Part shown: piece by piece, positions 40,685-60,837 of the stretch
Layout: each line of letters opens with the position of its first letter
Numbering within the stretch: position 1 is the stretch's first letter
Assembly: GCA_913009825.1 (NCBI GenBank)
Contig: CAJVYQ010000007.1
Span: forward strand, 1-64,000
Length of the DNA stretch: 64,000 bases
Direction of reading: 5' to 3'
Source: an uncultured Deferribacteres bacterium
GTDB taxonomy: Bacteria > Zhuqueibacterota > JdFR-76 > DREG01
Made by a program: the position numbers and the translations under genes
Notes under the pieces: generated by a model
What the model was told of the DNA's origin: nothing
Database searches by the model: none
The model's input: the letters and a program-made list of their open reading frames with translations, nothing else

Positions 40685-43084
40685 ATGAGATTCAATTTAA
40701 ACAAACTCTTTCCTTTTCTTTCCATCCGCACAAAGTTAATTGTGGCGTTTTCTATGCTTTCATTCATTCCTCTTCTAATTGTAGGAAGTATAGGAATATT
40801 TTATACAATGAACACTATGCGTAATTTTGCGATTGCTAATTTATCGCATGATGTATCCGTAATTGATGAAAGAGCAAAAAATTTTCTTAGCGATATAAAT
40901 GAAGATATTACTTACTTAAGCGATTCGCCTGTATTTCGAAATTTTCTGCAAACTCAGAGTGCATCGATCACAGTGGGCGGGAATAATCAGGTAAAAGAAT
41001 TGATGTTGCACCAGTTTCTGGCTTTCATCAAGACAAAACCGATGTATTATCAGATCTATTTTATCGATAAAAATCATGATGAACTGTTCAGAGTTCAGTT
41101 TTATAATTCATCTCCGACAATTATTCCGGAGGATCAGTTGAGCGAAGGAAGGTTTACCTTCTATTTTTATCTTACGGATACCTTAAAGCAGGGGGAGTTT
41201 GCGGTTATCCCTTCCGAACATCTGGCGTTGGACGGGCAAAAGATAGCGGGGATCAGTTTTGCCATGCGGATTTATGACGGCAAGGGCAATTTTCAGGGAA
41301 TATTGATCACAGACATTCTGGCTAAATATCTGTTCAAACTTTTAGAAACGCCTTCCATCCTTCATTTTAACCGAAAAATTGCTATTGTGAGCTCGGAAGG
41401 CCATTATCTTTATCATTCTCAGAAGAAAAAAGATTGGAACCGTTTATTGGCCACCAGGGATACAGAAACCCTCTTCGATGAATATCGATCGGAATTTACG
41501 ACTCAAATTTTATCCGGTAAATCGGGTATTATCTCAGATATTAAAGATGAATTGTTGGCTTATTCACCTCTTTTTGCTGCTCAGTTTCAAGGCGGAAACG
41601 CTTATTACCTTTTTGAAAGTGTTGAAAAAAAGTTTATTTTTGGATCGGTTCGGCGTTTTATTTTAATCTTTTCCCCCATATTATTCTTTTTCCTGCTCAT
41701 CTCAATTTCTTTTGGTTATTTAGCTACCAGTCAATTGGCGGGACCGGTAAAAATGCTACAACGGGGCGCCGAAATCATTACTCATGGCAACTATTCCTAC
41801 CGTTTACACATTGATACTAATGATGAAATTGAACAACTTGCCCTTCAATTTAATAAAATGGCCGAGGCGATTCGCAATCGTGAGATTTTATTAGAAAACC
41901 ACCAGAAGCGATTGGAAGAAACGGTTCACCAGCGCACATTCGAACTTCAGAATGAACGGGATAAACTTCAGGCAATTATGGACAATGTCCCAAGCGCTTT
42001 CATTTTGATCGACGAGAACGACAAAATTATCTCCGCAAGTGCTGCGATCCAGAGTATTACCAATCTGAATCCGAAGGAAGTGGTTGGCAAATTCTGTTAC
42101 CAGGTTTTCTTGCAGGATCAGATTTGTGAGTTGTGCCCGCAGAATCAAACACGCTTACAGGATTCCTGGCAGCCGCGTATTCGCACTCTAAAAATACCGG
42201 AAGGAAGAACCATTTATGTGGAACACATGACCATTCCATTTTCCATGAAACTTCATCAAAACGTTACGCTTGAGATCCTGACCGATGTGACGGAACGGAA
42301 AAAATTAGAAACTCATCTTGTGAAGATGGAGAAATTAATTGCCACCGGCGAAATGTCTGCTGTGATAGCGCATGAATTACGCAATTCACTGACATCGGTA
42401 AAGATGATTCTGCAATTACAACTGGAAAAGAGCAAAGCCGGGCCGGAGCGGCAAACTTTGAATGTTGCGGTGGAATCCATACTGGGAATGGAAGAAGTCT
42501 TAAACAACATGCTGCGCTTTTCCAAACCCTCTCCATTTGAGTTTCAAAAAGTCGATATCAATCGGATGATTGAAGAGAGTTTAATTTTTGTGGCGCCGCA
42601 AATCAGCATGAAAAAGATCGAGGTTTGCAAGGATTTTTCCGATTTGCTTCCCAAAATCAACTTAGACGTCAATCATATTAAAGAAGCATTTTTTAACCTT
42701 TTGCTAAACTCTGTTCAATCGATCCGCACCGAGGGCAAAATAACGGTTTCAACACGGTTAAAAAACCTATCTGAACCCATGGAAGATTTTGCATTTTCCG
42801 ACCGCACCTCATTGATGGCTGAAAATTTTCAGTATAAAATTATATTGGAAAAAAGCCGGGAAGTACTTCAAGTTGAAATTGAAGATAACGGCGCAGGAAT
42901 TCACAAACAGAATCAGGAAAAAATTTTCGACCCATTTTTTACTACCAAACTTTCCGGCACCGGGCTTGGCCTGGCAATCACAAAGAGAATTATCAATCAA
43001 CATGGCGGTATCATTTTGGTAAGTAGTAAAATTAAACGGGGAACAAAAATTACTATGATTTTTCCAACACAGGATTCATTATGA
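40685..43084 (+). CDS. Membrane sensor histidine kinase (Cache-HAMP-PAS-HisKA-HATPase)
   Basis: A 799-residue protein. Membrane helix ~20-42, a periplasmic dCache-like region to ~315, second helix (~318-345, FILIFSPILFFFLLISISFG), HAMP (~347-400), coiled linker and PAS (~430-530, with a QICELCPQ Cys pair), HisKA with His in MSAVIAHELRNSLTSV, and HATPase with NLLLNS, EIEDNGAGI and SGTGLGLAI. The phospho-acceptor His and all ATP-site boxes are present. It overlaps the next gene by four bases and should phosphorylate the NtrC-type regulator encoded there. The periplasmic domain may sense a substrate of the adjacent redox operon. Confidence 0.9.
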   Translation: MRFNLNKLFPFLSIRTKLIVAFSMLSFIPLLIVGSIGIFYTMNTMRNFAIANLSHDVSVIDERAKNFLSDINEDITYLSDSPVFRNFLQTQSASITVGGNNQVKELMLHQFLAFIKTKPMYYQIYFIDKNHDELFRVQFYNSSPTIIPEDQLSEGRFTFYFYLTDTLKQGEFAVIPSEHLALDGQKIAGISFAMRIYDGKGNFQGILITDILAKYLFKLLETPSILHFNRKIAIVSSEGHYLYHSQKKKDWNRLLATRDTETLFDEYRSEFTTQILSGKSGIISDIKDELLAYSPLFAAQFQGGNAYYLFESVEKKFIFGSVRRFILIFSPILFFFLLISISFGYLATSQLAGPVKMLQRGAEIITHGNYSYRLHIDTNDEIEQLALQFNKMAEAIRNREILLENHQKRLEETVHQRTFELQNERDKLQAIMDNVPSAFILIDENDKIISASAAIQSITNLNPKEVVGKFCYQVFLQDQICELCPQNQTRLQDSWQPRIRTLKIPEGRTIYVEHMTIPFSMKLHQNVTLEILTDVTERKKLETHLVKMEKLIATGEMSAVIAHELRNSLTSVKMILQLQLEKSKAGPERQTLNVAVESILGMEEVLNNMLRFSKPSPFEFQKVDINRMIEESLIFVAPQISMKKIEVCKDFSDLLPKINLDVNHIKEAFFNLLLNSVQSIRTEGKITVSTRLKNLSEPMEDFAFSDRTSLMAENFQYKIILEKSREVLQVEIEDNGAGIHKQNQEKIFDPFFTTKLSGTGLGLAITKRIINQHGGIILVSSKIKRGTKITMIFPTQDSL

Positions 43085-44484
43085 AACAGCCTACCTTATT
43101 AATTGTTGATGACGATGCTCATATCCGTTTCGCATTTAAAAAAACATTTGAAGCTCTGAATTATAGAACCCTTGAAGCTGCCAATGGAGCACAGGCTTTG
43201 CAAATGCTGTCCCATAATAAACCGGCAATTATTTTTATGGACATCATGATGCCGGATATGGACGGTTTAGAAGTGTTGCAGGAGATAAAAAAGAAGAAAA
43301 GAGAGATACCGGTAATCATGATCACCGGTTACGGCACTATGCATACTGCTATGAAGGCCATCCAATTAGGCGCCTATGAATACCTAACCAAACCTCTGGA
43401 TATTGATAAAATACGATTAATTGCCGACCGGGCGCTGGAAATGGTTAGGCTCCGAAAAGCCTTAAAAGATATGGAAGAGAAGAGTTTTCGAGAGACGAAA
43501 CGATTTGAACTGATCGGCAAATCGGAAAAAATGCAGGAAGTATATAAAAAAATGGGCGCTGCTGCGGCCTCTCCCAATACTACCAATATTTTAATCCAGG
43601 GAGAAAGTGGCACAGGCAAAGAACTGGTGGCACGTGCCATTCATTTTAACGGAAATTTTGCCCAAGAACCTTTAATGGCGGTTAATTGTACAGCGCTGCC
43701 GCAAGGATTGTTTGAAAGTGAATTATTCGGCTATGAAAAGGGCGCTTTTACAGGCGCTGTGGATAGAAAGATAGGATATTTGGAAAAAGCTAAAAACGGC
43801 ACCATATTCCTGGATGAAATTGGCGATCTTAGTTTGCATCTGCAGCAAAAATTGTTGCGGGTTATTCAAGAGCGCGAATTTTCCCGTCTTGGCAGTACGG
43901 ATATTCTGCCAATACCAGCCCGTTTTATCGCCGCCACCAATCACAATCTTGAAGAGGAAGTGGATAAAGGGAATTTCCGGGAAGATTTATTTTATCGATT
44001 AAATGTGATGATCATTCATATCCCGCCGCTCAATGAACGGGGAACGGATATTACGCTATTAGCCAATTTTTTCTTGGACCGACTTAATAAGAAGTTGCGT
44101 AAAAATATTAAGATGATTTCAAACCCGGTTTTATCTTTTCTAAATGGCCATGATTTTCCGGGAAATGTCCGGGAACTGGAGAACATGATCGAGCGGGCTG
44201 TGATTCTTGAGAAAGGCGGTATCCTTTCCTTCGATTCTTTTGAAAATTACCTGCAGCCGTACGAAAAAAGTTCATCATTGTTACCGCAGTTATCCTCTGT
44301 CGTTTATCAAAAAGCGCGCTCTGCCTGGTTAACCGAGTTTGAAAAGTGCTTTATTATGGAGCGCTTAAGAATCAATCGGGGCAATGTTACCGCAGCGGCA
44401 AAAGAAGCCAAAATTGAACGCCAAAGTTTTCAGCGTCTAATGAAAAAACATAAAATCCGGTCGAAAAATTTTAAAGAAGAGTAA
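43081..44484 (+). CDS. NtrC-family sigma54-dependent response regulator
   Basis: A 467-residue protein. Receiver (~1-120, IVDDDAHIR, IIFMDIMMPDMDG with phospho-Asp, MITGYG, YLTKPLD), AAA+ domain (~145-385, GESGTGKELVARAIH Walker A, GAFTGA at ~220, GTIFLDEIGDL Walker B) and a C-terminal Fis-type helix-turn-helix (AAAKEAKIERQSFQRLMKKH). GAFTGA shows it contacts sigma54. It is coupled to the kinase. A sigma54 promoter and a palindrome lie just downstream, at 44559-44714. Confidence 0.95.
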   Translation: MKQPTLLIVDDDAHIRFAFKKTFEALNYRTLEAANGAQALQMLSHNKPAIIFMDIMMPDMDGLEVLQEIKKKKREIPVIMITGYGTMHTAMKAIQLGAYEYLTKPLDIDKIRLIADRALEMVRLRKALKDMEEKSFRETKRFELIGKSEKMQEVYKKMGAAAASPNTTNILIQGESGTGKELVARAIHFNGNFAQEPLMAVNCTALPQGLFESELFGYEKGAFTGAVDRKIGYLEKAKNGTIFLDEIGDLSLHLQQKLLRVIQEREFSRLGSTDILPIPARFIAATNHNLEEEVDKGNFREDLFYRLNVMIIHIPPLNERGTDITLLANFFLDRLNKKLRKNIKMISNPVLSFLNGHDFPGNVRELENMIERAVILEKGGILSFDSFENYLQPYEKSSSLLPQLSSVVYQKARSAWLTEFEKCFIMERLRINRGNVTAAAKEAKIERQSFQRLMKKHKIRSKNFKEE

Positions 44485-44558: not shown

Positions 44559-44601
44559 TGTCACCCATTCAGTGGCTGTCTTTGTCACTCGATGAGTGAC
44601 A
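44559..44601. promoter_or_regulatory. Palindromic enhancer sites for the NtrC-type activator
   Basis: TGTCACTCGATGAGTGACA at 44583-44601 is a perfect 19-base palindrome. A weaker related site TGTCACCCATTCAGTGGCT lies at 44559-44577, its centre 24 bases away. They lie about 100-140 bases upstream of the sigma54 promoter, the expected position for activator dimers. Confidence 0.7.
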
Positions 44602-44697: not shown

Positions 44698-44714
44698 TTG
44701 GCAATATATTTGCA
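44698..44714 (+). promoter_or_regulatory. Sigma54 (-24/-12) promoter
   Basis: TTGGCAATATATTTGCA has GG at -24 and GC at -12 with the correct spacing (consensus TTGGCACNNNNNTTGCW, one change). It lies immediately upstream of the receiver gene and the cytochrome operon, and just downstream of the sigma54 activator gene. Confidence 0.75.
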
Positions 44715-44746
44715 GAAGAGTTTGAAGAATTTTGAGGAGATTAAAT

Positions 44747-45112
44747 ATTGTCAAAAAAAAAAGGATATTGGTGGTAGATGATGAACCTCATATCTTAAGA
44801 GCCTTTAAGAACTTCTTAACTAATGAGAATTTTAAGATGACAGGTGTAAAGATCATTTCGGAAGCGGAAGAAATTCTACAACATATTAAAATGGATCTTC
44901 TCATTGTGAATATCGAGGAAAAGGATAATTCGACATACTCTGTGATAAAGAAGTTGCGGCAAGAGAGTCCGGATTTACCGATCATTGCCGTTAGCGCTTA
45001 TACAGAATTACAATACCGGGAGTGTTTTAAGGAACTTGCTTTTAATTCCTTTTTACCAAAACCCATAGATATATATTCACTTCGCCAAGCCGTGCATGCG
45101 TCACTCGATTAA
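44747..45112 (+). CDS. Receiver-domain protein lacking the phospho-acceptor Asp
   Basis: About 121 residues: RILVVDDEPHILRAFKNFL, then DLLIVNIEEKDNST, PIIAVSAYTEL and FLPKPIDIYSL. The acidic pair, the Ser and the Lys of a receiver are present, but the phospho-acceptor Asp (normally in xxLDIxMP) is Asn in IVNIEE. The start is uncertain: GAGGAG (44734-44739) is followed by ATT 44747 in frame. TTG 44748 is one frame away across a run of ten A's and would read MSKKKRILVVDDEP with one more A. It may be an unphosphorylatable regulator of the neighbouring kinase pathway. Confidence 0.75.
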   Translation: MVKKKRILVVDDEPHILRAFKNFLTNENFKMTGVKIISEAEEILQHIKMDLLIVNIEEKDNSTYSVIKKLRQESPDLPIIAVSAYTELQYRECFKELAFNSFLPKPIDIYSLRQAVHASLD

Positions 45113-45152: not shown

Positions 45153-46415
45153 ATGAAGAAGTTATTTTTGGTACTGTTTACTGCTGCAACGATGGGGGTT
45201 TTATTATGGGAAGTGCAATCGGTACAAGCTTTTCCTGTATTTGCGAGAAAGTATAAAACCAGTTGTTCCACCTGTCACTATGCCTTTCCCAAGCTGAATG
45301 CCTTTGGCAAAGCGTTTAAGAACAATGGTTTTCGCTACCCGGCCGGAACAGACGAAGAAATGAGAAAAGAAGAACCGGTTAGTTTAGGTTCCGAAGCCTA
45401 TAAAAAGGTCTTCCCCGATGCGATCTGGCCCACCGATATTCCCGGCACTCCCCCACTTGCATTTCGGGCAATTGGCAGGTTTCTCAAGTTCGATAAGAAC
45501 ACGGAAGATGGGAAATCATCCTTTGAAATGCCTCATGAACTGGCACTGCTTTTTGCGGGAACATTTGACGATCATATCTCTTATCATGGTGAAATTGAAT
45601 TTGAACATGCGGCTGAAATCGGTTATGATTTTAAAGTGCAGTACGATTTTAGCCCCGCCGCTCACCTTGCTTTTGGCACGGTAGGATTAAACCACATGAT
45701 GGCCGAAGATCTTAGATTGACAGCCAATCATTACAATATTGTTAACTTGAGGAACCAATCCGGCACCTGGCGGATTCGCAGCGGCGCTGCCGGCGGCATA
45801 GAATTGTGGGGGGCCGGGAATGGCCCCGGCGGAAGAGGTGGTTTCACTTATGCTGCCGGCGTGGGGAATGGCCAGCGCGACGGTGAAAATTATGATAAAA
45901 ACAAGAGTAAAGATTTTTATGGCAGAGTAACTTATAAAATCGGCGGCCTTGGCGAGATAGGAGGTACGGAAGGACAGGGAAGTTCAACCTCCGCTTTCTA
46001 CATCGACAATTCTTTCCGAATTGGCGGTTTTGCCTATTCCGGCACGGCCGTTGCCTATGCCGGTGATGATGATTTCTCCGTGATCGGCGGAGATATCGAC
46101 TGGTGGTTCAATCGACTGAATGTGGTCGCTGCCGCCATGCAGATGAAATCGACCTATGCAGGTTTTGAGCGTAAATCCTTTACCTATTTTTCAGAAGCCA
46201 ATTATGTTCTTTATCCCTGGTTGATCGCTTATGCCCGCTATGAATTTACCGATAAAAATACGGATGATAATATCGATGCGCAAACGACCATTCTGCCGGC
46301 CATTGTTGCCATGGTTCGGGCAAATGTAAAATGTTCTCTCGAGTATAAGATTCCTTTGGATTCTGCCGGTAAAAATACCGGTGGTTTGATTTTTCAAGTG
46401 GATTTTGGTTTATAA
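45153..46415 (+). CDS. Monohaem cytochrome-porin fusion, Cyc2-like in layout
   Basis: Start ATG 45153 (AAAGGAAAAAACC before it) gives about 420 residues. There is a signal peptide (MKKLFLVLF...VQAF). The mature N-terminus is FPVFARKYKTSCSTCHYAFP, with one c-type haem motif CSTCH, followed by KLNAFGKAFKNNGFRYP and ~350 residues of alternating beta strands typical of an outer-membrane barrel. Cyc2 iron oxidases share this arrangement (N-terminal haem plug plus ~16-strand barrel). A wider family of haem-tagged porins also begins FARKYxTSC, so iron oxidation is only one option. It heads the redox operon. Confidence 0.75.
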   Translation: MKKLFLVLFTAATMGVLLWEVQSVQAFPVFARKYKTSCSTCHYAFPKLNAFGKAFKNNGFRYPAGTDEEMRKEEPVSLGSEAYKKVFPDAIWPTDIPGTPPLAFRAIGRFLKFDKNTEDGKSSFEMPHELALLFAGTFDDHISYHGEIEFEHAAEIGYDFKVQYDFSPAAHLAFGTVGLNHMMAEDLRLTANHYNIVNLRNQSGTWRIRSGAAGGIELWGAGNGPGGRGGFTYAAGVGNGQRDGENYDKNKSKDFYGRVTYKIGGLGEIGGTEGQGSSTSAFYIDNSFRIGGFAYSGTAVAYAGDDDFSVIGGDIDWWFNRLNVVAAAMQMKSTYAGFERKSFTYFSEANYVLYPWLIAYARYEFTDKNTDDNIDAQTTILPAIVAMVRANVKCSLEYKIPLDSAGKNTGGLIFQVDFGL

Positions 46416-46553: not shown

Positions 46554-47144
46554 ATGAAATGGATTAACGGCCTGATCACGCTATCTTTTTTGATTTTTGT
46601 ATCGTCCGGAATGGCCGGTGATATAAAAGGGAAGGTAAAAGTAAGGGCGGCGAGAAATAGTGGTAATGTCGTGATTTATATTGATAAGGTTGAAGGAAAA
46701 GTTTTTGAACCTGCCAAAGGACATTCGGTTATGGATCAGAAAAATTTAGAATTCGTTCCTCATGTTTTTCCTGTGGTTGTGGGAACTACGGTGGATTTTT
46801 TGAATAGTGACGAGGTTCTGCACAATGTTTTTTCGCCGGATTGTCCGGATGGAAAATTTAACCTGGGTACCTGGGCAAAAGGGATTATGAAGTCTTTCAC
46901 GTTTAATAAGCCGGGCATTTCCACTATCCTTTGCAACGTCCACCCAGAAATGGAGGCCTACATTGTGGCTGTAAAAACGCCTTATTTTGCTGTAAGTGAT
47001 AAAGCAGGTAATTATATCATCAAAAATGTCCCTGCCGGAAATTACACATTAAAAGTTTGGCATGAAAAGAGAAAAGCCAAACCCCGGGAAGTAGCGGTTG
47101 CGGCTACAGGTGAAACAGCAGTTGATTTTGAACTGAAACGATAA
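46554..47144 (+). CDS. Periplasmic cupredoxin with C-terminal carboxypeptidase-regulatory-like domain
   Basis: A 196-residue protein. Signal peptide (~1-21, ending GMAG). The type-1 copper ligands are His in VLHNVFSP and Cys-His-Met in ILCNVHPEM. A short beta domain follows (AVSDKAGNYIIKNVPAGNYT), as in carboxypeptidase regulatory-like folds. It should be a mobile or tethered one-electron carrier in the periplasm. Its place between the cytochrome-porin and the quinone-linked complex makes it a plausible shuttle between them. Confidence 0.85.
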   Translation: MKWINGLITLSFLIFVSSGMAGDIKGKVKVRAARNSGNVVIYIDKVEGKVFEPAKGHSVMDQKNLEFVPHVFPVVVGTTVDFLNSDEVLHNVFSPDCPDGKFNLGTWAKGIMKSFTFNKPGISTILCNVHPEMEAYIVAVKTPYFAVSDKAGNYIIKNVPAGNYTLKVWHEKRKAKPREVAVAATGETAVDFELKR

Positions 47145-47173: not shown

Positions 47174-47707
47174 ATGCAAGGTTCGATGAATTTATTAAAA
47201 AATCAATGGTTTCTAATCGGGGCTGGTCTTTGCGGAATATTGATTCTTGTTGTCTTATTCTTAGTTTTGCCAAATGGAGAGGTGACCCAGCCGATTGCGT
47301 TTAATCATAAAAAACACCGGGACAACAATGTGCCCTGTATTGTGTGTCATCGATTTTACAAAGAAGAGAAAAGGGCGGGCATCCCGCCGGTGAACGTATG
47401 TATTACCTGCCATGAGGATGTTATTTACCCTACTCCGGAAAAGATTAAGATTCAAAATTATTTTAGCCAACATAAAGCAATCCCCTGGCAACAGGTTTAC
47501 AAAGTTCCCGGGCATGTATTTTTTTCTCATCGCCTGCATGTAAATAGGGGGAACCTGGCTTGCAAATCTTGCCATGGTGAAGTCGGGCAGCTTGAACAAC
47601 CCGTCACAAAACAGTTGATTCCGTTAAAAATGAAATATTGTATCGATTGTCATAAAACAGTCGAAACCATTGACAATCCGTATGAGTGCATCCGCTGTCA
47701 CCGGTAA
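47174..47707 (+). CDS. Membrane-anchored pentahaem cytochrome c, ActA/QrcA-like
   Basis: A 177-residue protein (ATG 47186 is an equally good start, MNLLKNQWFLIGAGLCGILI). One N-terminal membrane anchor (~10-33), then five haem motifs: CIVCH ~55, CITCH ~76, CKSCH ~130, CIDCH ~156, CIRCH ~172, with His-rich spacers (FNHKKH, FFSHRLH). Five haems with a single anchor is the pattern of ActA; QrcA has six. It would receive electrons from, or give them to, the complex encoded next. Confidence 0.9.
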   Translation: MQGSMNLLKNQWFLIGAGLCGILILVVLFLVLPNGEVTQPIAFNHKKHRDNNVPCIVCHRFYKEEKRAGIPPVNVCITCHEDVIYPTPEKIKIQNYFSQHKAIPWQQVYKVPGHVFFSHRLHVNRGNLACKSCHGEVGQLEQPVTKQLIPLKMKYCIDCHKTVETIDNPYECIRCHR

Positions 47708-47722
47708 ACAGGAGAACTACAG

Positions 47723-50149
47723 TTGGGAATTAAGCGAAGAGATTTTTTTAAACAAAGCGCACTGTTAGTATCGGCTGCCCACAGCGGACGCTGGGCCAGC
47801 CGGGCGGTTGCCGCACAGGAAAAAGACATCTTTCAGGGTTCGCAGAAGGCGGGGAAAGAAACCTGGAAAAATACTGTTTGCCGTTTATGTCCGGGAGGTT
47901 GCGGTATCCGGGTACGTTTAATTGATGAACAACCGGTTACAATTGCTGGAAATCCAATCTCTCCGATCAACCATGGCGGACTTTGTCCTACCGGCCACTC
48001 AGGTTTGCAACAATTATTTCATCCTGATCGAATTTCAGCCCCGTTAAAGAGAGTTGGCGAAAAAGGGTCCGGGAAGTGGGAGACAATATCCTGGCCGGAG
48101 GCTTTACAAATGGTTGCCCAAAAATTGCTTGCTCTCCGCAATCAGGGCAATCCCCATCATGTGGTTTTCCTGCATGCCGGTTTCCGCGGTTCAACGGCGC
48201 GTTTAGTGCAGCAATTTATGTCCGCTTACGGTTCGCCAAATGTTATCTCCACCCGGGAGGAAAATCCTTATGCACTGCCTTTTTTAACGATGCACGGCAG
48301 AAACGCGCGCCCAGCTTATGATTTTTTAAATTCACGTTTTATATTAAGTTTTGGCAAAGATTTTTTGGGAACTGAAGGGCCGCCTGCCTGGATGGCTAAT
48401 ATCTTTAGTGAAACACGACAACCTCACCGGGAGTTTCAGACTCATTTTGTCCAGATCAGTTCCCGGTGCTCGATGAGTTCGGCAAAGTCCGATCTATGGC
48501 TGCCGGTTTATCCCGGTACTGCCGGAGCATTGGCTTTGGGTATTGCTTATATTTTGATTTTAGAAGATCTCTATGATCACCAGTTTGTGGAAAATTTTAC
48601 CTTTGGTTTTGCTGATTGGATTGACAATAAAGGAAAACCACATTCCGGATTTAAAAATTTGGTTCTTAAAGAGTATTATCCGGAAAAAGTGGCTAAAATT
48701 ACCGGCGCGCCGGTAGATGTAATCATCCAATTGGCCCGGCGGTTTGCCGGCAATAAACCTTCTATCGCCATTTATGGTGAAGAAGTAACCAATTATACTA
48801 ACCGTTTTTATTCCCAAATGGCCATTCATTCTTTAAATGCCTTGTCAGGTTCAATAAATATGAAGGGCGGCATCGTTATTCAGCCTGATAAATATCCCAT
48901 TTCCGTTCCGAAAAGCTTTTTGGATTCAATTGCCCGCAGAGGCCTGAAGCATGATCCACTGGATAAAGGTTCCAATGATCAAGTATCTTTGGTACAGTCT
49001 GATTTAGCTAAGTTTTTACGAAATATAGAAGAACAAAAACCTTATCCGCTGGAACTGGCTTTTCTCTTCCATACGAACCCGGTCTTTGAACTGCCGGAAA
49101 CGACACGTGTAAAACGACTTTTTGCCCACATTCCATACCTTATCAGTTTTTCCTCTTTTATGGATGAAACGACAGAACTGGCCGATCTCATTCTCCCCGA
49201 TCATACCTATCTTGAAAAGTGGGATTTAGATTTTGGCGTGCCCAATATACCGTTCCTGCATGTGGGACTGAGTCAGCCGGTTGTGGAACCGGTATTAGAT
49301 ACCCGGCACACAGGTGAGATAATCATACAATTGGCAAAGATGATCGATCCGTTGACCCGGACAGTTTCATCTCAAAATTATTTGCAGACGATTCGCTCGC
49401 AAGCTAAAATGCTTTATGATTCAGGTTCAGGTTTTATCCCCACCAGTGATTTTGGACAATTCATGTACACATATATGTTAGACCGGGGATTTAAATATTA
49501 TAAAGCAGAAGATTTTGAGCAGTTCTGGAAGGGGTTCGTAACACATGGCAGTTGGTTGGAAATGCCTGCGGGAACAGAGAATACTCGATCAGCCTTTCAG
49601 ACGCCTTCTAAAAAATTTGAATTTGCTTCTCAAATATTACAAGAACAGTTCAGTAAATATAAGAATAATTCATCCGTTCAAGAATCCCGGGACCCTGATT
49701 TGAAATTACTTCCCCATTATGAGCCTTGCGAATTTTCCGGTGCAGAAGATAAATATCCTCTGCATCTAATTCCATATCATTTAGTAACCTTATTCGAAGG
49801 TGAAGGAGCCAATCGGCCGTTATTGTTGGAGATGGTTGGTTATCCTCATCTAATTCGTTGGAATTCCTGGGCAGAAATCAACCCTGAAACAGCACATAAA
49901 TGGAAAATTCATGATAGTGATTGGGTTTGGCTGGAATCTGAAAAAGAGAGAATTAAAATCAGAGTAAAATATTTTCAAGGCGCCATGCCCGGTATCGTGT
50001 ATCTCCCAATTGGACTCGGACATACAACCTATGGATGCCATGCCAAAGATCGAGGAGTGAACCCAAATCAGATTTTAGCGTCTGGATGGGAACGGTTTAG
50101 CGGCCAGTTTGCCCGGCAAGCGACCCGGGTACGGATTCTGAAAATCTGA
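47723..50149 (+). CDS. Molybdopterin-oxidoreductase-family subunit, QrcB/ActB1-like
   Basis: An 808-residue protein from TTG 47723 (CAGGAGAAC before it). The twin-arginine signal is KRRDFFKQSALLVSA. The Fe-S motif is CRLCPGGCG, with the fourth Cys in GGLCPTG. The long MopB fold follows, with NPVFELPETTRVK, DLILPDHTYLEKWD and a C-terminal molybdopterin-dinucleotide-binding-like domain. The usual RPGTDGALAL is changed to YPGTAGALAL. In the order pentahaem - MopB - Fe-S - NrfD it matches Qrc (and ACIII with ActB split). In those complexes this subunit may lack molybdenum and serve as an electron wire. Confidence 0.9.
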   Translation: MGIKRRDFFKQSALLVSAAHSGRWASRAVAAQEKDIFQGSQKAGKETWKNTVCRLCPGGCGIRVRLIDEQPVTIAGNPISPINHGGLCPTGHSGLQQLFHPDRISAPLKRVGEKGSGKWETISWPEALQMVAQKLLALRNQGNPHHVVFLHAGFRGSTARLVQQFMSAYGSPNVISTREENPYALPFLTMHGRNARPAYDFLNSRFILSFGKDFLGTEGPPAWMANIFSETRQPHREFQTHFVQISSRCSMSSAKSDLWLPVYPGTAGALALGIAYILILEDLYDHQFVENFTFGFADWIDNKGKPHSGFKNLVLKEYYPEKVAKITGAPVDVIIQLARRFAGNKPSIAIYGEEVTNYTNRFYSQMAIHSLNALSGSINMKGGIVIQPDKYPISVPKSFLDSIARRGLKHDPLDKGSNDQVSLVQSDLAKFLRNIEEQKPYPLELAFLFHTNPVFELPETTRVKRLFAHIPYLISFSSFMDETTELADLILPDHTYLEKWDLDFGVPNIPFLHVGLSQPVVEPVLDTRHTGEIIIQLAKMIDPLTRTVSSQNYLQTIRSQAKMLYDSGSGFIPTSDFGQFMYTYMLDRGFKYYKAEDFEQFWKGFVTHGSWLEMPAGTENTRSAFQTPSKKFEFASQILQEQFSKYKNNSSVQESRDPDLKLLPHYEPCEFSGAEDKYPLHLIPYHLVTLFEGEGANRPLLLEMVGYPHLIRWNSWAEINPETAHKWKIHDSDWVWLESEKERIKIRVKYFQGAMPGIVYLPIGLGHTTYGCHAKDRGVNPNQILASGWERFSGQFARQATRVRILKI

Positions 50150-50367: not shown

Positions 50368-51060
50368 ATGCCCCGCTGGGGAATGGTAATCGATTTAAAT
50401 ACATGCACAGGCTGCGGCGCATGCATTGCCGCATGTAAAAACGAAAATAATGTGGCATATTCTTCACCGGAGGAAGCGGAAAATGGACGGGCGTTATCCT
50501 GGATCAATCTGCTTCCCCGCTATGAAGGTGAATTTCCCAATATTCATATTCAATACTATCCAATGTTGTGTATGCAGTGTGATAATCCGCCGTGCATTAA
50601 GGTTTGTCCGGTTCGGGCTACTTATAAAGCTGATAACGGTATAGTTGCACAGATTTACCCCAGATGTATCGGTTGCCGTTATTGCATGGCGGCTTGCCCC
50701 TATACTGTGAAATATTTTAATTGGTATGAACCGAAGTGGGAACCGGAAATGATAAAATCGTTCAATCCTGATGTGTCACTCCGCCCAAAAGGTGTGGTTG
50801 AAAAATGTACTTTTTGTCATCACCGCCTTATCGAGGCGCGGGAGGAAGCTATGGTAGAAGGAATTGAATTTCAAGAAGAACAGTTTGTCCCGGCATGTGT
50901 AGAAACCTGTCCGGCCAGGGCCATGCATTTTGGTGATTTGGATGATCCCAACAGCATGGTATCTAAACTTGCCAATAGTTCCAGAGCTGTCCGGTTTTTG
51001 GAAGATTTGGGAACGGAACCTAAAGTGTATTATTTATCCGCCAGTGAAAAGTTGATTTGA
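50368..51060 (+). CDS. Four-cluster ferredoxin-like subunit (QrcC/PsrB/DmsB-like)
   Basis: A 230-residue protein, AAAGGAGG upstream. It has four Cys groups: CTGCGACIAACK; CMQCDNPPCIKVCP; CIGCRYCMAACP; and CTFCHH with CVETCP. These bind four Fe-S clusters that link the MopB subunit to the membrane subunit. There is no signal peptide, so it probably co-translocates with the twin-arginine MopB subunit. The nine-base gap to the NrfD gene shows co-translation. Confidence 0.93.
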   Translation: MPRWGMVIDLNTCTGCGACIAACKNENNVAYSSPEEAENGRALSWINLLPRYEGEFPNIHIQYYPMLCMQCDNPPCIKVCPVRATYKADNGIVAQIYPRCIGCRYCMAACPYTVKYFNWYEPKWEPEMIKSFNPDVSLRPKGVVEKCTFCHHRLIEAREEAMVEGIEFQEEQFVPACVETCPARAMHFGDLDDPNSMVSKLANSSRAVRFLEDLGTEPKVYYLSASEKLI

Positions 51061-51071
51061 GGTTCAATTAA

Positions 51072-52400
51072 ATGTCTTACGATCCGGATGCAATTTTATA
51101 TGGCCCCATAGAAAGTCCGGGCAAAAGTTTTCGGTATACGGTTGCCGGGCTGATTCTTGTGATCTCGCTCGCTTTGTTCATGTATGTACGCCAGTTTGTT
51201 TTGGGATTAGGCGTTACCGGTATGAATGAACCGGTTACCTGGGGCTTCTATATTGTTAATTTTGTATTTTTCATCGGCATCAGCCATGCCGGCACTCTTA
51301 TATCTGCAATTCTCCGGCTTTCCAAAGCGGAGTGGCGCCGCCCAATTACGCGTATGGCTGAAGTGATTACCGCCATTGTTCTGGCCATCGGCGGTCTCCA
51401 TCCGATTATCGATTTGGGCCGGCCGGATCGCATCCTGAATATTTTCCGTGCCGGTCGACTGCAATCTCCCTTACTTTGGGACGTCACCAGCATTGCCGCG
51501 TATTTTACAGCCAGTACCGTTTATCTCTATGTGCCGCTTATTCCGGATATTGCCATACTGCGAGATCGCGGCGCAAAACCCCAATGGCTTTATAAATTCC
51601 TGAGTTGGGGTTTCCAGGGAACAAAGAAGCAAAAACATGTACTGGAACGGGCAATGAATATTTTGATGGTTATGGTTATCCCGATTGCTATTTCGGTTCA
51701 CACGGTTATTTCATATATTTTTTCCATGACCCTGCAACCGGGATGGCATAGTACCATTTTTGGCCCCTATTTTGTTGTAGGCGCCATTTTCTCCGGCATT
51801 GCCGCTCTGCTCATTGTAATGATCACTTTTCGCAAAGTTTTTCATTTTGAAGCCTATTTAAAAGAAGTGCATTTTCGCTACTTGAGTAACCTGTTATTGG
51901 TTATGGCATTGCTCTGGTTTTACTTCACCTTCTCGGAATATTTAACCGGCTATTTTGGCCACGAACCGTATGAGATGAAAGTGTTTTTTTACAAATTTAC
52001 CGGCAAATATGCGCCGCTTTACTGGGGAATGGTATTCTGTAATTTCATTCTGCCGGTAATTATATTAAGCAATAAAAAAACAAAGAAGATTCCTGGAATT
52101 TTAATTGCCTCTATCGGTATAACAATCGGTATGTGGTTAGAACGTTTGATTATTGTAGTGCCTTCACTGGCGAATACCAGGCTGCCTTATCCGACCGGAA
52201 TCTATATTCCTTCACTTACGGAATGGAGTCTATTTATCGGTGCGGTTGGGATGTTTATGCTCGGTTTTGTTTTATTCTCACGGTTTTTTCCTTTAATCTC
52301 TGTTTGGGAAATTAAAGAGGGACGGGAAACCAGTGTGAGAGAAGTTTCTGAGCGGTTGAAATCGTACCAGCCGGATCAAAGTTTAACAGAAACCGATTAA
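51072..52400 (+). CDS. NrfD-type quinone-interacting membrane subunit (QrcD/ActC-like)
   Basis: A 442-residue protein with about ten membrane helices. Conserved NrfD sequence: WGFYIVNFVFFIGISHAGTL, RRPITRMAEVITAIVLAIGG, LHPIIDLGRPDRILN. It has 10-helix ActC/QrcD length rather than the 8-helix PsrC length. This subunit binds menaquinone/menaquinol and may conduct protons. It is the membrane base of the complex. Confidence 0.92.
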   Translation: MSYDPDAILYGPIESPGKSFRYTVAGLILVISLALFMYVRQFVLGLGVTGMNEPVTWGFYIVNFVFFIGISHAGTLISAILRLSKAEWRRPITRMAEVITAIVLAIGGLHPIIDLGRPDRILNIFRAGRLQSPLLWDVTSIAAYFTASTVYLYVPLIPDIAILRDRGAKPQWLYKFLSWGFQGTKKQKHVLERAMNILMVMVIPIAISVHTVISYIFSMTLQPGWHSTIFGPYFVVGAIFSGIAALLIVMITFRKVFHFEAYLKEVHFRYLSNLLLVMALLWFYFTFSEYLTGYFGHEPYEMKVFFYKFTGKYAPLYWGMVFCNFILPVIILSNKKTKKIPGILIASIGITIGMWLERLIIVVPSLANTRLPYPTGIYIPSLTEWSLFIGAVGMFMLGFVLFSRFFPLISVWEIKEGRETSVREVSERLKSYQPDQSLTETD

Positions 52401-52518
52401 TATGCAGTTTAATTAAAACCTAAACCGGGCGATTCTTCTGTCATTCCGCCTGCCCGACGAATTGTCCACCTGTGCGGACAGGCAGGAGGGGAGGGATCTT
52501 TTTAATTTTTAACATCAA
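52401..52518. repeat. Family A-like half hairpin with GC-rich palindrome
   Basis: CTGTCATTCCGCC and GGGAGGGATCTTTTTAA carry inside them CCTGCCCGACGAATTGTCC...CTGTGCGGACAGGCAGG, a longer version of the mini-palindrome. The matching right arm (AAGATTCCTGCTGAATGACA) is at 52648-52667, beyond the family D element, so D may have inserted into A. Confidence 0.7.
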
Positions 52519-52635
52519 CCTGAATTGAGCGATTGTAGGGCGATTCGCTGAATCGCCGGCCGTATTTGTATTAAAAATGAAAATCCGTTTAGTAAAAAAA
52601 ACAAGGTCAAAAACAAGAGAATCGCTCAATTCAGG
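52519..52635. repeat. Complete family D element
   Basis: CCTGAATTGAGCGATTGTAG at the left and GAATCGCTCAATTCAGG at the right form near-perfect inverted ends. The left inner hairpin GGGCGATTCGCTGAATCGCC is uninterrupted. It is nested between the two arms of a family A hairpin. Confidence 0.9.
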
Positions 52636-52737
52636 ATCAAAATAACAAGATTCCTGCTGAATGACATTTCACTTAATCGGTGATAGTCTGAGGTTCATAA
52701 TCGCTCGATCAAGGTAAAATAAAACTTAGGAATTTAT

Positions 52738-52971
52738 ATGAACGATAAACCGGTCTTATTTCTACAAATTGTGTCACTCATTTTTATCTGGCTCCTTTTT
52801 ATTGGCATCGGTATCTGGATAGTCAATTTACTAAGGTTGTCTATGCTGTTGCATGATGCACCTTCGGCTTCGATTGGTATCAGCATTGTAGCGATCCCGG
52901 TATTTTTTACTCTCGCAAGCATATTAACTTATGTCTTTCTTGGCTTGCGTAAACATCGCGATCAGGAGTAA
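52738..52971 (+). CDS. Small two-span membrane protein
   Basis: A 77-residue protein. Hydrophobic spans are ~7-32 (FLQIVSLIFIWLLFIGIGIW) and ~44-67 (ASIGISIVAIPVFFTLASIL); the C-terminus is charged. Its last base overlaps the next gene's ATG (TAATG). It resembles no named family. By position it could be an accessory subunit that holds the cytochromes near the NrfD complex. Confidence 0.7.
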   Translation: MNDKPVLFLQIVSLIFIWLLFIGIGIWIVNLLRLSMLLHDAPSASIGISIVAIPVFFTLASILTYVFLGLRKHRDQE

Positions 52972-54176
52972 TGCCGATGAATCTCAGCAAAACTTTGATT
53001 TTTTTAACCTTAGTTATTTGTGTTTGCCCTGGCGGGGAAAATACATTATTTGCACAAGAAACTTTGCCTGGCTATAACCCGCAAAAGGGACAAAAACTTT
53101 TTGCTGCGAAAGGTTGTATCAACTGCCATTCGGTTTATGGATTTGGCGGGAAAATTGGCTCTGACCTTGGACGGTCTCTGGCCAATAAAGAAGCGTTGGA
53201 TATCATAGCCGTCATGTGGAACCATTCCAATGAGATGAGCAAAGCCTTAGAACGCGGGCAATCTGTACCCCAGTTGGCGCCACCGGAAATGGCTGCCATA
53301 CTATCATTTTTTTATTATCTGAATTATTTCGGCACTCCCGGTTCTGCCGGGCAAGGCGCACTTATCTTTCAGAACAAAGGCTGTTCTGCCTGCCATTCTG
53401 TTGATCAAAACAATAAAACGAACTCTCCGAATTTGTTTAATGAACCATTCAGCTCACCATTACAATTGGGACAGGCGCTCTGGAATCACGGCGGAAAGAT
53501 GATGGCAAGAATTCGTTCACAGGGAATTCGAGTTCCCACTTTATCCGGTAGTGAGATAACAGATATATTTGCTTTTCTGCGCGGAAGAAATCCGGTTCTA
53601 TTCTACAAACCACAGGAGGCCATCCCCGGTGATTACAAAACAGGCGCAAGGTTGATCAGAGAAAAACAGTGCCTCCGCTGCCATTCTATGGGTGGAAAAG
53701 GCGGTAAGATGGCTCCTGATTTCACTCAAATCAACCTTCACCGTAATGCCGTAGAAATTGTAGCCATGATGTTGAACCATGCTCCCCGGATGTGGCGGAA
53801 AATGAAAGAAAATTCTATAGCCTCACCAACGTTTACGGGCACCAATCTGGCAGATTTGGTAGCGTACTTATATTTTTCAAATTTTCGCATCCCAACCGGC
53901 AATGCTGTAAAAGGCGAAAAGTTGTTTCAAGAAAAACAATGCAATAAATGTCACTCATTACAATTGTCTACTAAAAGGATTGGTCCGAACCTGGCGATAG
54001 TACAAGGGCTGGATGAAATGATCAACATTTCTTCAGCCATGTGGAATCATAATATCAACATGCTGGAGCAGATGCAGCGGCAAAATATTCCTTTTCCGCG
54101 ATTTAACGGTGAAGAATTAAAGAACTTGTTGACATTTATTCGATCTGTGCGCGAGAAAGAACATGAAGAGAAATAA
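52971..54176 (+). CDS. Tetrahaem cytochrome c of four tandem domains
   Basis: A 401-residue protein with a signal peptide (~1-28, ending LFAQ) and four c-type domains of about 90 residues: CINCH ~49, CSACH ~138, CLRCH ~234, CNKCH ~324. Each domain has a conserved WNH-xxx-M (MWNHSNEM, LWNHGGKM, MLNHAPRM, MWNHNINM), probably the region of the Met ligand. It is periplasmic and would extend the electron path from the quinone-linked complex. Confidence 0.9.
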   Translation: MPMNLSKTLIFLTLVICVCPGGENTLFAQETLPGYNPQKGQKLFAAKGCINCHSVYGFGGKIGSDLGRSLANKEALDIIAVMWNHSNEMSKALERGQSVPQLAPPEMAAILSFFYYLNYFGTPGSAGQGALIFQNKGCSACHSVDQNNKTNSPNLFNEPFSSPLQLGQALWNHGGKMMARIRSQGIRVPTLSGSEITDIFAFLRGRNPVLFYKPQEAIPGDYKTGARLIREKQCLRCHSMGGKGGKMAPDFTQINLHRNAVEIVAMMLNHAPRMWRKMKENSIASPTFTGTNLADLVAYLYFSNFRIPTGNAVKGEKLFQEKQCNKCHSLQLSTKRIGPNLAIVQGLDEMINISSAMWNHNINMLEQMQRQNIPFPRFNGEELKNLLTFIRSVREKEHEEK

Positions 54177-54177
54177 T

Positions 54178-56121
54178 ATGAGAACTTACCGGAACTGTTT
54201 TAATAGTTTGCTGTTGATCGTCATCCCGATTCTTTTTGTTGGCTGTTCACAGGATTGGCAAGGCTATCAGAATGAATATAATCAGATAATAGAAGAAAAA
54301 GCTCTCGATGAGAATCAACCGGTTAAAATAGGCAAAAAGGTAATCAGTTATGAAAAATTGCAGGTGGCCGATTATTGTATCTCCTGCCACGTAGGCGTAA
54401 CGGCAATCAAAATGGCCGATGCTCCTCAGCCAATTCAATCGCACCCGGGCGAGTTCCTGATAAAACACGATTGGCAGAAAATCGGTTGCACCATCTGTCA
54501 CGGGGGCAATGGAGGTACCCTTTCAAAAGAAGATGCACATGAAGGTATGTTAAAAGCGGAGATGGTGCAAACCTCCTGTTACCGGTGTCATCCGCGCAGC
54601 CGGCAGCTTCCCGGCGCCAGGCAGCTTAATCACGGCCAAAAGTTATTCACCGATTTACAATGCAGCGGCTGCCACTTTGTCGAAGGCCTGGTTTTACCTC
54701 GCCTCGGTCCTTCTTTGAACGGTATTGGCAGCCGTATAGAAAGAAAATGGTTGCGCTACTGGTTAAAGAATCCTTCTGAAATGATGCCAAATGCCAAAAT
54801 GCCTGATTTTTACCTCAATGATGACAATGCCGGCGCCGTTGCAGCTTATTTGAAGACCTTTAAGGACCAACAATTGGAGGGCGATCCGGAGCCTCGCAAA
54901 GGGGACCCTGCCGAGGGTGGCAACATACTTCGGCGGGCACGCTGCATTAGTTGTCATCCCTTCAATGGCCGCGGCGGCTTCCTGGGGCCTGATTTGGGCC
55001 GGCTCGGCAACAAAACCAATCGGAAATTTTTATTCGCTAAAATCAAGGATCCACGGCGTTTTGAACCAAATTCTACTATGCCCCAATTTAATTTTTCCGA
55101 TCAACAGATTGCCGATGTGGCAGACTATTTGATCGACGAATATACCGATTATGATCTTGTAGATATTTTTAATGAAGACAGTTTGAAAGCCGGGAATGAC
55201 TCGACTACGATTGAGAAAGGGCGCAAAATTTACAAAGAGTTGCGCTGCGTCAACTGCCATATTCTTGATAATGGAATTGAATGGATGCGCATTGGCCCAA
55301 AATTATCTGACATTGGCGATAAACCGTTAAGTGAGTTTGATTTTGGCCATAGTCAAATTCCGGGAACAAGGGGAGCCTATATTTTTGAAAAAATAAAAAA
55401 TCCGCGCGCATTTGCCACGGCAGATCATCCTCAGAAAATGCCGCTTTTTAAATTAACCAACTCAGATATTTATGATTTAACACTGCTGTTGTTGAGTTTT
55501 AATCAGAAAAAAATTTCTTCACCACTGTTTATGGCTTTCCCGGATACATCTCTCTATAGGCCGCAGGGAGAATTCGGCAGGCTTGTTGAAAAATTCCAGT
55601 GTTTTTCCTGTCACCGTATCAACGGTCGCGGATTTAATCTTGCCTATGATCTGTCAATTGAAGGCAGCCGGGTTTCGCGACAATGGCTGTATGATTATTT
55701 GATGGTTTCCTATTCTCTTCGCCCTATTTTGGTTGAAAGAATGCCTATATTTAATTTTACACCCCAGGAGGCAAAAACCATTACGGATCATATTATGGCA
55801 AATTACACCAGCGGTTGGATTCCTCGTCATCCCGGAGAAGAATCCTCGCCGCAACTAATTGTGCAGGGGAAACAGCTTGTTAAGGAAAAAGGGTGCCTGG
55901 CGTGTCATATCCTTGGAGATAAAGGAGGCTATGTTGCTCCCAGTTTTACAACGGGAGCGTTGGCCGGAGATAAATTACAGGCGGAATGGATTTACCGGTG
56001 GCTGAAAGATCCGCAGAAAATTGTTCATGGTGTTCTGGAACCCAATTATGGTTTATCGGATCGGGAAGCGTTAGCAATTACAGCATATTTAATGACTTTA
56101 AACCATAAGGATTGGCGATGA
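54178..56121 (+). CDS. Eight-haem cytochrome c lipoprotein
   Basis: About 647 residues from ATG 54178 (ATG 54163 would overlap the previous gene). Lipobox ILFVGC near residue 23. Eight CxxCH motifs, numbered from 54163: CISCH 72, CTICH 109, CYRCH 139, CSGCH 167, CISCH 261, CVNCH 362, CFSCH 480, CLACH 578. The first three are close together, like a multihaem module. The last five are class I-type domains, most with WL-xx-P and MP-x-F Met-ligand motifs. Anchoring by lipid would hold it at the inner or outer membrane. No exact family is known to me. Confidence 0.9.
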   Translation: MRTYRNCFNSLLLIVIPILFVGCSQDWQGYQNEYNQIIEEKALDENQPVKIGKKVISYEKLQVADYCISCHVGVTAIKMADAPQPIQSHPGEFLIKHDWQKIGCTICHGGNGGTLSKEDAHEGMLKAEMVQTSCYRCHPRSRQLPGARQLNHGQKLFTDLQCSGCHFVEGLVLPRLGPSLNGIGSRIERKWLRYWLKNPSEMMPNAKMPDFYLNDDNAGAVAAYLKTFKDQQLEGDPEPRKGDPAEGGNILRRARCISCHPFNGRGGFLGPDLGRLGNKTNRKFLFAKIKDPRRFEPNSTMPQFNFSDQQIADVADYLIDEYTDYDLVDIFNEDSLKAGNDSTTIEKGRKIYKELRCVNCHILDNGIEWMRIGPKLSDIGDKPLSEFDFGHSQIPGTRGAYIFEKIKNPRAFATADHPQKMPLFKLTNSDIYDLTLLLLSFNQKKISSPLFMAFPDTSLYRPQGEFGRLVEKFQCFSCHRINGRGFNLAYDLSIEGSRVSRQWLYDYLMVSYSLRPILVERMPIFNFTPQEAKTITDHIMANYTSGWIPRHPGEESSPQLIVQGKQLVKEKGCLACHILGDKGGYVAPSFTTGALAGDKLQAEWIYRWLKDPQKIVHGVLEPNYGLSDREALAITAYLMTLNHKDWR

Positions 56122-56606
56122 GGATTTCCTCTAAATCCATTTTGGATTCTATATTGGCTTTTGGGCTGGCATTTATTATATTACAATGTGGCGGTAACTC
56201 TGTTTCGGGAAAAAAAGAAATTGCCGGCTCATCAGCGGTTCAAACCAAAGAGGTCTTTTTCGCAGACATGTATAATAATCCTTACCGGGAGGCTCATTTA
56301 TCCCGGCATCAATACCGGGGAAAACTCATTTATGATCATTATTGTGCCGTTTGCCATGGTGAAAATGGCGATGGCAACGGCTTTAACTCTTTTAACCTGC
56401 AAGATTCCTTCGGAATTCGACCTTTCAATTTTGCCGATTCTACCGCAGCCCCCCTGCTTAAATTGGCGGAAATTAAAAGGGCCATTGAAGGAGGAGGCCG
56501 CGCGGTTGGCAAGTCACAATACATGCCGCCATGGGGTAAGACACTGCGTGATGATGAAATAATAGTACTGATAGACTATATCCGGACTTTTATACCGATG
56601 TTGTAA
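56118..56606 (+). CDS. Monohaem cytochrome c lipoprotein
   Basis: About 162 residues from ATG 56118, overlapping the previous stop (ATGA). A hydrophobic N-terminus with lipobox IILQC, haem motif CAVCHGENGDGNG, and Met ligand in QYMPPWG. It matches the ActE-type single cytochrome domain found at the end of ACIII loci. A likely terminal electron shuttle. Confidence 0.88.
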   Translation: MRISSKSILDSILAFGLAFIILQCGGNSVSGKKEIAGSSAVQTKEVFFADMYNNPYREAHLSRHQYRGKLIYDHYCAVCHGENGDGNGFNSFNLQDSFGIRPFNFADSTAAPLLKLAEIKRAIEGGGRAVGKSQYMPPWGKTLRDDEIIVLIDYIRTFIPML

Positions 56607-56614
56607 TTGTATCG

Positions 56615-57550
56615 ATGATTCAATTCCTTAAAATTTTATTCACATCTATTTTATTACTTCTGCTCAGCAATACGTCGGCAATTTCCCAGGTAGCTCATAC
56701 CGAAGCCACAGGCAGTTATTCCGGATTATTCTTTTCCTATGAATCTTTTGAAAAGTCCGGTGGCTTTGCTGATGAAAAAAGAGGGATTTACCGGTTGGAC
56801 CAGACTGTTTCCACCGCAATTCTAATTGCCATGTATCCGGGTAAAATATTTGGCTTCGGTATAGAAGCTCCATTGATTACTCGAAACATTCGGTTCTTCC
56901 GGCAAAACAATCAAACTAAAAGTAGCGGTTACCGGGAAATGAGTGATCTACGCTTTGTGGCGAAATATCAATTTGGCGTGTACAAAAGATACCGCTTGTT
57001 TGGTCGGGACCGGCTTTTAAATATGCTGGTGAGTCTGGTCGGGAAAATTAAATTCCCTTCTGCTTCAACGAATATTCGTGACCGAAACGGCACGGTTTTG
57101 GCCCCTTTTTTACAACCCGGCACCGGTTCCACCGATATGACGCTTGGTTTCATCTTTCATTCGGGTACGCAGAAATATTTTCGAATTCACGGCCATTTGA
57201 CGACAACGTTTTCACTTTCTCACCGGGAGTATGTGCCGGGTAAGAGAATACATTTTACCCTCTCTTATATCCCGGTGCGAATGGGAATTAAAAATCGCTA
57301 TTATCCTTTTCTTGGTTTAAAAGGATGGTGGAAGGACGAAGCCCGGATAGATAATGTCCCTCAGCCAAACACGGAAGGGCTGCATCTATACTTCTCTCCG
57401 GGCTTCCGGTCTACGTGGTGGTATCTTTCCGGACGGCGTGTCTTTTATATGTTTCAAGCTGCCTTTCAGATTAAATTATTGGCAACCCGCCATGTAATGC
57501 CCGGCCCTGTGTTTGGCTTTTATATAGGCACAAGACTATTTTTTCGTTAA
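56615..57550 (+). CDS. Outer-membrane beta-barrel protein closing the redox operon
   Basis: A 311-residue protein. Signal peptide (~1-25, ending AISQ), then amphipathic strands with aromatic belts and a C-terminal Phe-containing strand (FGFYIGTRLFFR). There are no haem motifs. It starts nine bases after the monohaem gene. It could be a porin or a sheath for a cytochrome; the multihaem lipoprotein and this barrel together would resemble a porin-cytochrome pair, but this is inference. Confidence 0.75.
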   Translation: MIQFLKILFTSILLLLLSNTSAISQVAHTEATGSYSGLFFSYESFEKSGGFADEKRGIYRLDQTVSTAILIAMYPGKIFGFGIEAPLITRNIRFFRQNNQTKSSGYREMSDLRFVAKYQFGVYKRYRLFGRDRLLNMLVSLVGKIKFPSASTNIRDRNGTVLAPFLQPGTGSTDMTLGFIFHSGTQKYFRIHGHLTTTFSLSHREYVPGKRIHFTLSYIPVRMGIKNRYYPFLGLKGWWKDEARIDNVPQPNTEGLHLYFSPGFRSTWWYLSGRRVFYMFQAAFQIKLLATRHVMPGPVFGFYIGTRLFFR

Positions 57551-60178: not shown

Positions 60179-60205
60179 CGAAAGTGAGAAGGGAATTCAA
60201 AAAAT

Positions 60206-60827: not shown

Positions 60828-60837
60828 TGAGCGTTCC

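Follow-up and report, generated by a model that had tools for sequence, protein, structure and literature searches.

The closest described relative of the system reported here is Cyc2 of Acidithiobacillus, Mariprofundus and Chlorobium ferrooxidans, in which a signal peptide, a single haem bound by AxPxFAR[QK][TY], CXXCH and PxL at set spacing, and a 16-strand porin are joined in one chain, and for which a monohaem potential of 208 mV is reported (PMC8406198). In Acidithiobacillus ferrooxidans, this outer-membrane monohaem porin is encoded in a gene cluster with a type-1 copper protein, rusticyanin, to which it hands its electrons (PMC10654088). The function of Cyc2 cluster 3 is the most uncertain according to Keffer and colleagues (PMC8406198); FeGenie labels it “probable iron oxidation and possible iron reduction” and finds it in iron reducers such as Geobacter (PMC7005843). 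Cyc2 homologues from Calditrichota and Gemmatimonadota vent metagenome-assembled genomes (MAGs) are mostly of this cluster, there written cluster III (PMC9769843).

The window (the whole 64,000-nucleotide stretch of DNA that was analysed, from an uncultured Deferribacteres bacterium) encodes a porin-cytochrome that is a new member of this known superfamily, present as one copy in the genome:

45153..46415, + strand: monohaem porin-cytochrome of the FARKY clade (Cyc2 superfamily), 420 aa, with a signal peptide at about residues 1-26, a haem domain at about 27-100 and a 16-strand barrel at about 102-420 (open reading frame, motif, AlphaFold2, Foldseek and trees)
45228..45299, + strand: haem-binding block AFPVFARKYKTSCSTCHYAFPKLN, holding AxPxFAR[QK][TY], CSTCH and PxL (direct reading, published Cyc2 definition and invariant columns across 77 rows)

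The gene starts at an ATG with a purine-rich, ribosome-binding-like stretch on its 5′ side. By inspection, the N-terminus, MKKLFLVLFTAATMGVLLWEVQSVQA|FPVFARKYKTSCSTCHYAFPKLNAFG, reads as a typical signal peptide whose cleavage site is of the AxA type; it ends in VQA and leaves a mature chain that begins FPVFARKYKTSCSTCHYAFPKLNAFGKAFKNNGFRYP. The first haem cysteine is residue 38, 12 residues into the mature protein, in agreement with the first-pass annotation, which had placed one CSTCH within 25 residues of the mature end. We compared the protein with the Cyc2 definition of Keffer et al. 2021 (PMC8406198). It has a signal peptide (by inspection) and exactly one CXXCH; AXPXFAR[Q/K][T/Y] appears upstream as AFPVFARKY, with the same offset to the first cysteine as in FARQT sequences; PXL follows four residues past the haem motif (CSTCHYAFPKL); and the chain, at 420 aa or about 394 mature, exceeds the required length of at least 365 residues. 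The same definition asks for a blastp E-value of at most 1e-5 to a Cyc2 query. The window protein reaches 2e-8 at a database size of 2e8, a value that is borderline at nr size and refers to FARQTG sequences rather than to the published queries; 6 of 27 cluster-1-type sequences match it at 1e-5 or better at that same database size.

An AlphaFold2 model computed from 77 aligned sequences (the window protein and 76 relatives from GTDB contigs; mean pLDDT 87.7, pTM 0.84) predicts a helical N-terminal domain followed by 16 strands between residues 102 and 419. Its best Foldseek matches are the 16-strand porins OmpU, OmpF and OmpC, with OprP also among them, and OprP/OprO is the match that Keffer et al. 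found for Cyc2 (PMC8406198). Model and matches together supply the fused 16-strand porin of the Cyc2 definition, and the early description of a monohaem cytochrome fused to a porin in the Cyc2 layout therefore stands. The barrel itself is present, although it begins near residue 102 and spans about 320 residues rather than the 350 first proposed. The N-terminus, which would have spoken against this reading had it been disordered and too short to hold haem, is modelled as an ordered helical domain with pLDDT of 73-91 across residues 31-90, in a model that contains no haem.

Searches of GTDB contigs found 563 related stretches, the best 80 of which were retained as loci for the FARKY neighbourhood counts given below. 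P28, F30, A31, R32, Y34, T36, C38, C41 and H42 are invariant in the 77-row alignment, and this conservation, with the 563 relatives, indicates that the gene is not a chance reading; it also bears out the suggestion that the FARKYxTSCxxCH start belongs to a broader family. A second axial His or Met was not found among the invariant columns of that alignment. Since the haem block is invariant, we rejected a haem-free porin, and in the tests made the protein did not group with haem-free porins. Neither Pfam nor NCBIfam matched it with any family, as was also the case for a comparison Cyc2 from Caballeronia; a PDB sequence search gave no match from the single sequence or from a profile, and an Rfam scan of the window gave none. 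Separately, one relative of the same clade (L006, G030:C141:26455-26778) contains two in-frame stop codons and is possibly a decayed gene.

Within the Cyc2 superfamily, phylogeny places the protein on a branch of its own. The FARQTG-type sequences used for comparison come from named plasmids (three), Chlorobiaceae (five, among them the Chlorobium sp. L304-S-6D genome) and Pseudomonadota genomes (30). They form two groups that we label c1 and c2; these labels are ours and do not come from a published tree. The branch that parts c1 and c2 from the side of the window protein has support of 99 when the tree holds 119 rows and of 100/98 when it holds 54, which sets the protein outside Cyc2 clusters 1 and 2. 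On its side of that branch, the protein falls within the FARKY clade (b), whose unity as a single clade has only moderate support (72/83); the neighbouring family (a, mostly FARRY) is common in the protein’s phylum. Unlike FARQTG-type Cyc2, the window protein carries FARKY in place of FARQT and lies in a separate clade. Profiles of c1 and c2 match it at 47 and 39 bits solely through the haem block and fail once that block is removed, so that no barrel similarity to FARQTG Cyc2 is detectable; the barrels of c1 and c2 are nearly as dissimilar to one another.

The FARKY clade is probably what the literature calls Cyc2 cluster 3. That cluster, as defined by McAllister and Keffer, includes Cyt572, the second copy of Zetaproteobacteria and the Geobacter copies, and the published Cyc2 consensus allows K and Y as in FARKY. 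Moreover, a member of the window’s own subclade (L039) is a Dive96 Gemmatimonadales MAG, apparently from the same sampling as the vent MAGs with cluster III homologues (PMC9769843), so that FARKY proteins are probably already known under that label. Cluster 3 is heterogeneous, and the assignment draws on the published Cyc2 consensus and on that study.

The next gene after the porin-cytochrome encodes a copper protein:

46554..47144, + strand: periplasmic cupredoxin with a C-terminal CarboxypepD_reg domain (Pfam/NCBIfam, AlphaFold2, and PDB matches to amicyanin and plastocyanin)

Its copper loop is of the amicyanin type (C127-x2-H130-x2-M133, plus H90), and the His...Cys-x2-His-x2-Met ligands lie in a predicted type-1 cupredoxin fold (AlphaFold2 pLDDT 93.9) whose top match is amicyanin, with profile matches to amicyanin near 5e-7. 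All 72 homologues have CxxHxxM, and C127, H130 and M133 do not vary. Among the best 80 of the 563 loci, 72 have a cupredoxin homologue near the FARKY porin, across 17 named phyla by NCBI labels, and 55 of those 72 homologues lie within 1 kb downstream of the porin on the same strand. Furthermore, the top five cupredoxin matches in the window’s phylum come from the five genomes with a full-length clade b porin, the window’s own included, and lie on the same contigs. No cupredoxin homologue was found near the sister a-family porins (0/21 loci) or near FARQTG Cyc2 (0/20 loci, about 10 kb of each read); these controls comprise fewer loci than the FARKY set, and since their query was the cupredoxin of FARKY loci, unrelated cupredoxins such as rusticyanin would escape them. 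The likeness to the Cyc2-rusticyanin chain of A. ferrooxidans has bounds: here the copper protein resembles amicyanin and carries an additional CarboxypepD_reg domain, and the partners that follow, in place of cyc1/coxBACD, are multihaem cytochromes and quinone complexes. In the freely available literature that was searched, neither the porin-cupredoxin pair nor the exchange of quinone modules beside it was found described.

Downstream of the cupredoxin, the window continues with a quinone module and a series of cytochromes:

47174..47707, + strand: pentahaem c7-type cytochrome, QrcA-like, with an N-terminal membrane anchor (five CXXCH; NCBIfam QrcA)
47723..50149, + strand: QrcB-like subunit of the molybdopterin oxidoreductase family, exported by Tat, in which the CxxCx3C cluster motif is intact (Pfam/NCBIfam; RRDFFK Tat motif by inspection)
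50368..51060, + strand: iron-sulfur subunit, QrcC-like (NCBIfam QrcC)
51072..52400, + strand: NrfD/PsrC-type quinone-reactive membrane subunit (Pfam NrfD; 88% identical in the Calditrichota MAG of locus L037)
52971..54176, + strand: tetrahaem c-type cytochrome (four CXXCH; Cytochrom_C domains, Pfam)
54163..56121, + strand: octahaem c-type cytochrome with a lipoprotein-like start (eight CXXCH; Pfam, neighbourhood table)
56112..56606, + strand: monohaem cytochrome c of the CBB3 class (Pfam; homologue in 29/80 loci, best 80 of 563)
56615..57550, + strand: probably an outer-membrane protein or one rich in beta structure (a homologue with 35% identity occupies the corresponding position in locus L034)

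The product of 56615..57550 matched nothing in Pfam or NCBIfam. Between the NrfD and tetrahaem genes, at 52401-52970, lies a short open reading frame that starts MNDKPVLFLQIVSLIF and resembles a small membrane protein.

The predicted quinone module shares with QrcABCD, and with alternative complex III, a cytochrome of c7 type, a molybdopterin-family subunit, a QrcC-like Fe-S subunit and an NrfD-type subunit in one operon. All four subunits fall below the NCBIfam equivalog cut-offs (QrcA 90.8 bits against 180, QrcB 318.9 against 440, QrcC 300 against 400 and QrcD 39.6 against 570), and by sequence we class the module as Qrc-like only. It differs from QrcABCD in that its cytochrome is pentahaem, and in that the QrcB-like subunit retains CxxCx3C at residues 53-60 and a Pfam Molybdop_Fe4S4 match, whereas QrcB is reported to bind no redox cofactor. 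Characterised Qrc passes electrons from periplasmic cytochromes to menaquinone, and alternative complex III, with similar parts, from quinol to cytochrome c (PMC13059093).

Besides the window, L037 and five Myxococcota loci (L090, L093, L096, L098 and L099) have a Qrc-like set with the porin-cupredoxin pair, while Rieske and split cytochrome b genes stand beside the pair in about 29 loci; an octahaem cytochrome is found beside the porin in 31 of 80 loci, and 22 loci of the whole set have a GltD-like NAD(P) oxidoreductase (each among the best 80 of 563). The quinone module beside the pair is thus interchangeable: it is Qrc-like in these seven loci, and in many others a Rieske/cytochrome b set with an octahaem cytochrome, often joined by the NAD(P) oxidoreductase. 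The window operon keeps octahaem and monohaem cytochromes. The module of many relatives, with Rieske protein, split cytochrome b, NAD(P)-type flavoprotein and octahaem cytochrome, resembles the Rieske/cytochrome b and NAD(P) oxidoreductase complexes of anammox bacteria (Kustd1480-1485) as described in the available passages of PMC12954380; such a set is absent from the window operon, and those passages mention no porin-cytochrome. In Chlorobium sp. L227-S-6D (L097:9989-20022), the cluster comprises a FARKY porin, Rieske protein, ferredoxin, split cytochrome b, octahaem and monohaem cytochromes c and the cupredoxin; immediately after it come genes for a small cytochrome c and for a Cyc2 of cluster-1 type (FSRQTG). 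In two Chlorobiaceae genomes (G089 and G085), open reading frames with 16 and 14 CXXCH motifs lie near FARQTG Cyc2 (L164:2949 and L165:3032).

Upstream of the porin-cytochrome, the window carries regulatory genes and candidate control sites:

40685..43084, + strand: sensor histidine kinase, dCache-HAMP-PAS-HisKA-HATPase (Pfam)
43081..44484, + strand: NtrC-type sigma-54-dependent response regulator (Pfam)
44583..44601, no strand: palindrome TGTCACTCGATGAGTGACA (sequence scan upstream of the porin)
44699..44714, + strand: sigma-54 promoter-like site TGGCAATATATTTGCA with consensus spacing
44732..45112, + strand: stand-alone receiver-domain protein (Pfam)

When the 500 bases ahead of the porin gene were shuffled 100 times, no shuffle scored as high as the sigma-54-like site (0/100). 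Because it is placed upstream of that site, the palindrome is possibly a binding site for the NtrC-type regulator. The kinase and regulator pair also lies upstream in L034, L035, L037, L038 and L039. A sigma-54-like site upstream of the porin was significant in only 14 of 76 loci, and we therefore set aside sigma-54 control as a trait of the family.

Elsewhere in the window, the beginning of an NtrC-type regulator gene (60736-62268) is repeated as a truncated copy (59814-60209) about 1 kb upstream of the full gene, and the copied stretch looks almost identical. Two Wzi-type outer-membrane proteins, closely similar by eye, are encoded about 20 kb apart (11433-12956 and 32992-34536), and a single 768-aa open reading frame at 24845-27151 fuses a DruA domain to Tn5-type transposase domains.

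On the best reading of these data, the FARKY porin-cytochrome serves as an electron conduit in the outer membrane, with a copper protein as its shuttle. A small solute, for example dissolved Fe(II), would enter the barrel and exchange electrons with the single c-type haem, held by the small helical domain that precedes the 16 strands of the porin. From there, we infer, electrons would pass to the neighbouring cupredoxin, which may carry them across the periplasm to the multihaem cytochromes (pentahaem, tetrahaem and octahaem) and to the Qrc-like quinone complex. Gene neighbourhood is no proof of electron transfer, and the donor, the cellular placement of the parts and the step from haem to copper are accordingly offered as predictions. 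Across the family, flow would most likely be inward, as electron uptake; in the window genome it may run either way. A COX1-family protein occurs in 46 of 49 carrier genomes, a count that covers carriers only and a family that includes nitric oxide reductases, and this favours uptake for the family, as do the Qrc-like and NAD(P)-linked modules and the Chlorobium linkage with Cyc2. We give a probability of about 0.5 to a conduit with inward flow as the main role of the FARKY family.

Outward flow in the window organism is a serious rival. The same conduit would then run in reverse: from quinol, by way of the Qrc-like/NrfD complex, the multihaem cytochromes, the cupredoxin and the porin haem, electrons would reach an acceptor outside the cell such as Fe(III), Mn(IV) or a partner cell. 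The window genome, at 95.9% completeness, yielded no COX1 and no cytochrome bd (CydA), and its three molybdopterin enzymes (the Qrc-like subunit, NuoG and a DMSO-reductase-family protein) include no Nar or Nap nitrate reductase; COX1 is also missing from the genome of L034, the closest relative, a Calditrichota MAG. High-potential electron uptake therefore has no obvious sink in the window genome, and an external acceptor would supply one. The window genome also encodes, on another contig (L150:397-2214, C76), a 605-aa multihaem protein found via weak NrfA-family matches, with a C-terminal sorting-like tail and possibly secreted to the surface, which would suit outward flow, as would the quinol-to-cytochrome direction of alternative complex III (PMC13059093) and the FeGenie label of possible iron reduction for a cluster present in Geobacter (PMC7005843). 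The Chlorobium linkage with Cyc2 and the 46 of 49 carriers with COX1 suit uptake better. Furthermore, the potentials of monohaem Cyc2 and of type-1 copper proteins are usually high for the reduction of iron minerals. We judge the reversed conduit less likely than inward flow, though with a substantial probability.

It is improbable that the protein is Cyc2 in the strict sense, binding and oxidising dissolved Fe(II) exactly as in Mariprofundus or Acidithiobacillus. Motif, haem, length and fold all agree with the published definition, the blastp values (borderline at nr size) point the same way, and the cluster III homologues of Calditrichota and Gemmatimonadota vent MAGs (PMC9769843), with L039 apparently from that sampling, would fit; against these stand the 100/98 split from FARQTG Cyc2, the different partner gene, with the cupredoxin at 0 of 21 a-family and 0 of 20 FARQTG loci, and the uncertain function that Keffer et al. 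assign to cluster 3. Moreover, Chlorobium L304 and L227 have both FARKY and FARQTG-type proteins, so that the two kinds are probably not redundant. An ordinary uptake porin, with a structural or sensing haem and coincidental neighbours, is more improbable still: the Foldseek matches are to general and substrate porins and no second axial His or Met is conserved among the invariant columns, but the haem motif is invariant in 77 rows and redox neighbours are kept in many phyla.

With the copper-coupled conduit as the preferred reading, we propose, at somewhat less than even odds, that the FARKY porin and the cupredoxin form an undescribed two-part outer-membrane electron-transfer unit, found in at least 17 phyla with exchangeable quinone modules. 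Such a unit would stand apart from the Cyc2 pathway, although its genes at times lie next to a Cyc2 gene. The copper partner sets FARKY proteins apart from FARQTG Cyc2, in whose neighbourhoods no such partner was found at the 20 loci examined. Cluster 3 homologues are used to mark iron oxidation across many uncultured phyla despite having the least certain function in the family, and the window genome, with no recognised oxygen or nitrate reductase, counsels caution in calling an organism an iron oxidiser from a porin gene alone. For such predictions of iron oxidation, the copper partner and the short list of quinone modules supply a testable pathway. The pairing across some 17 phyla points to a widespread candidate route for electrons over the outer membrane.
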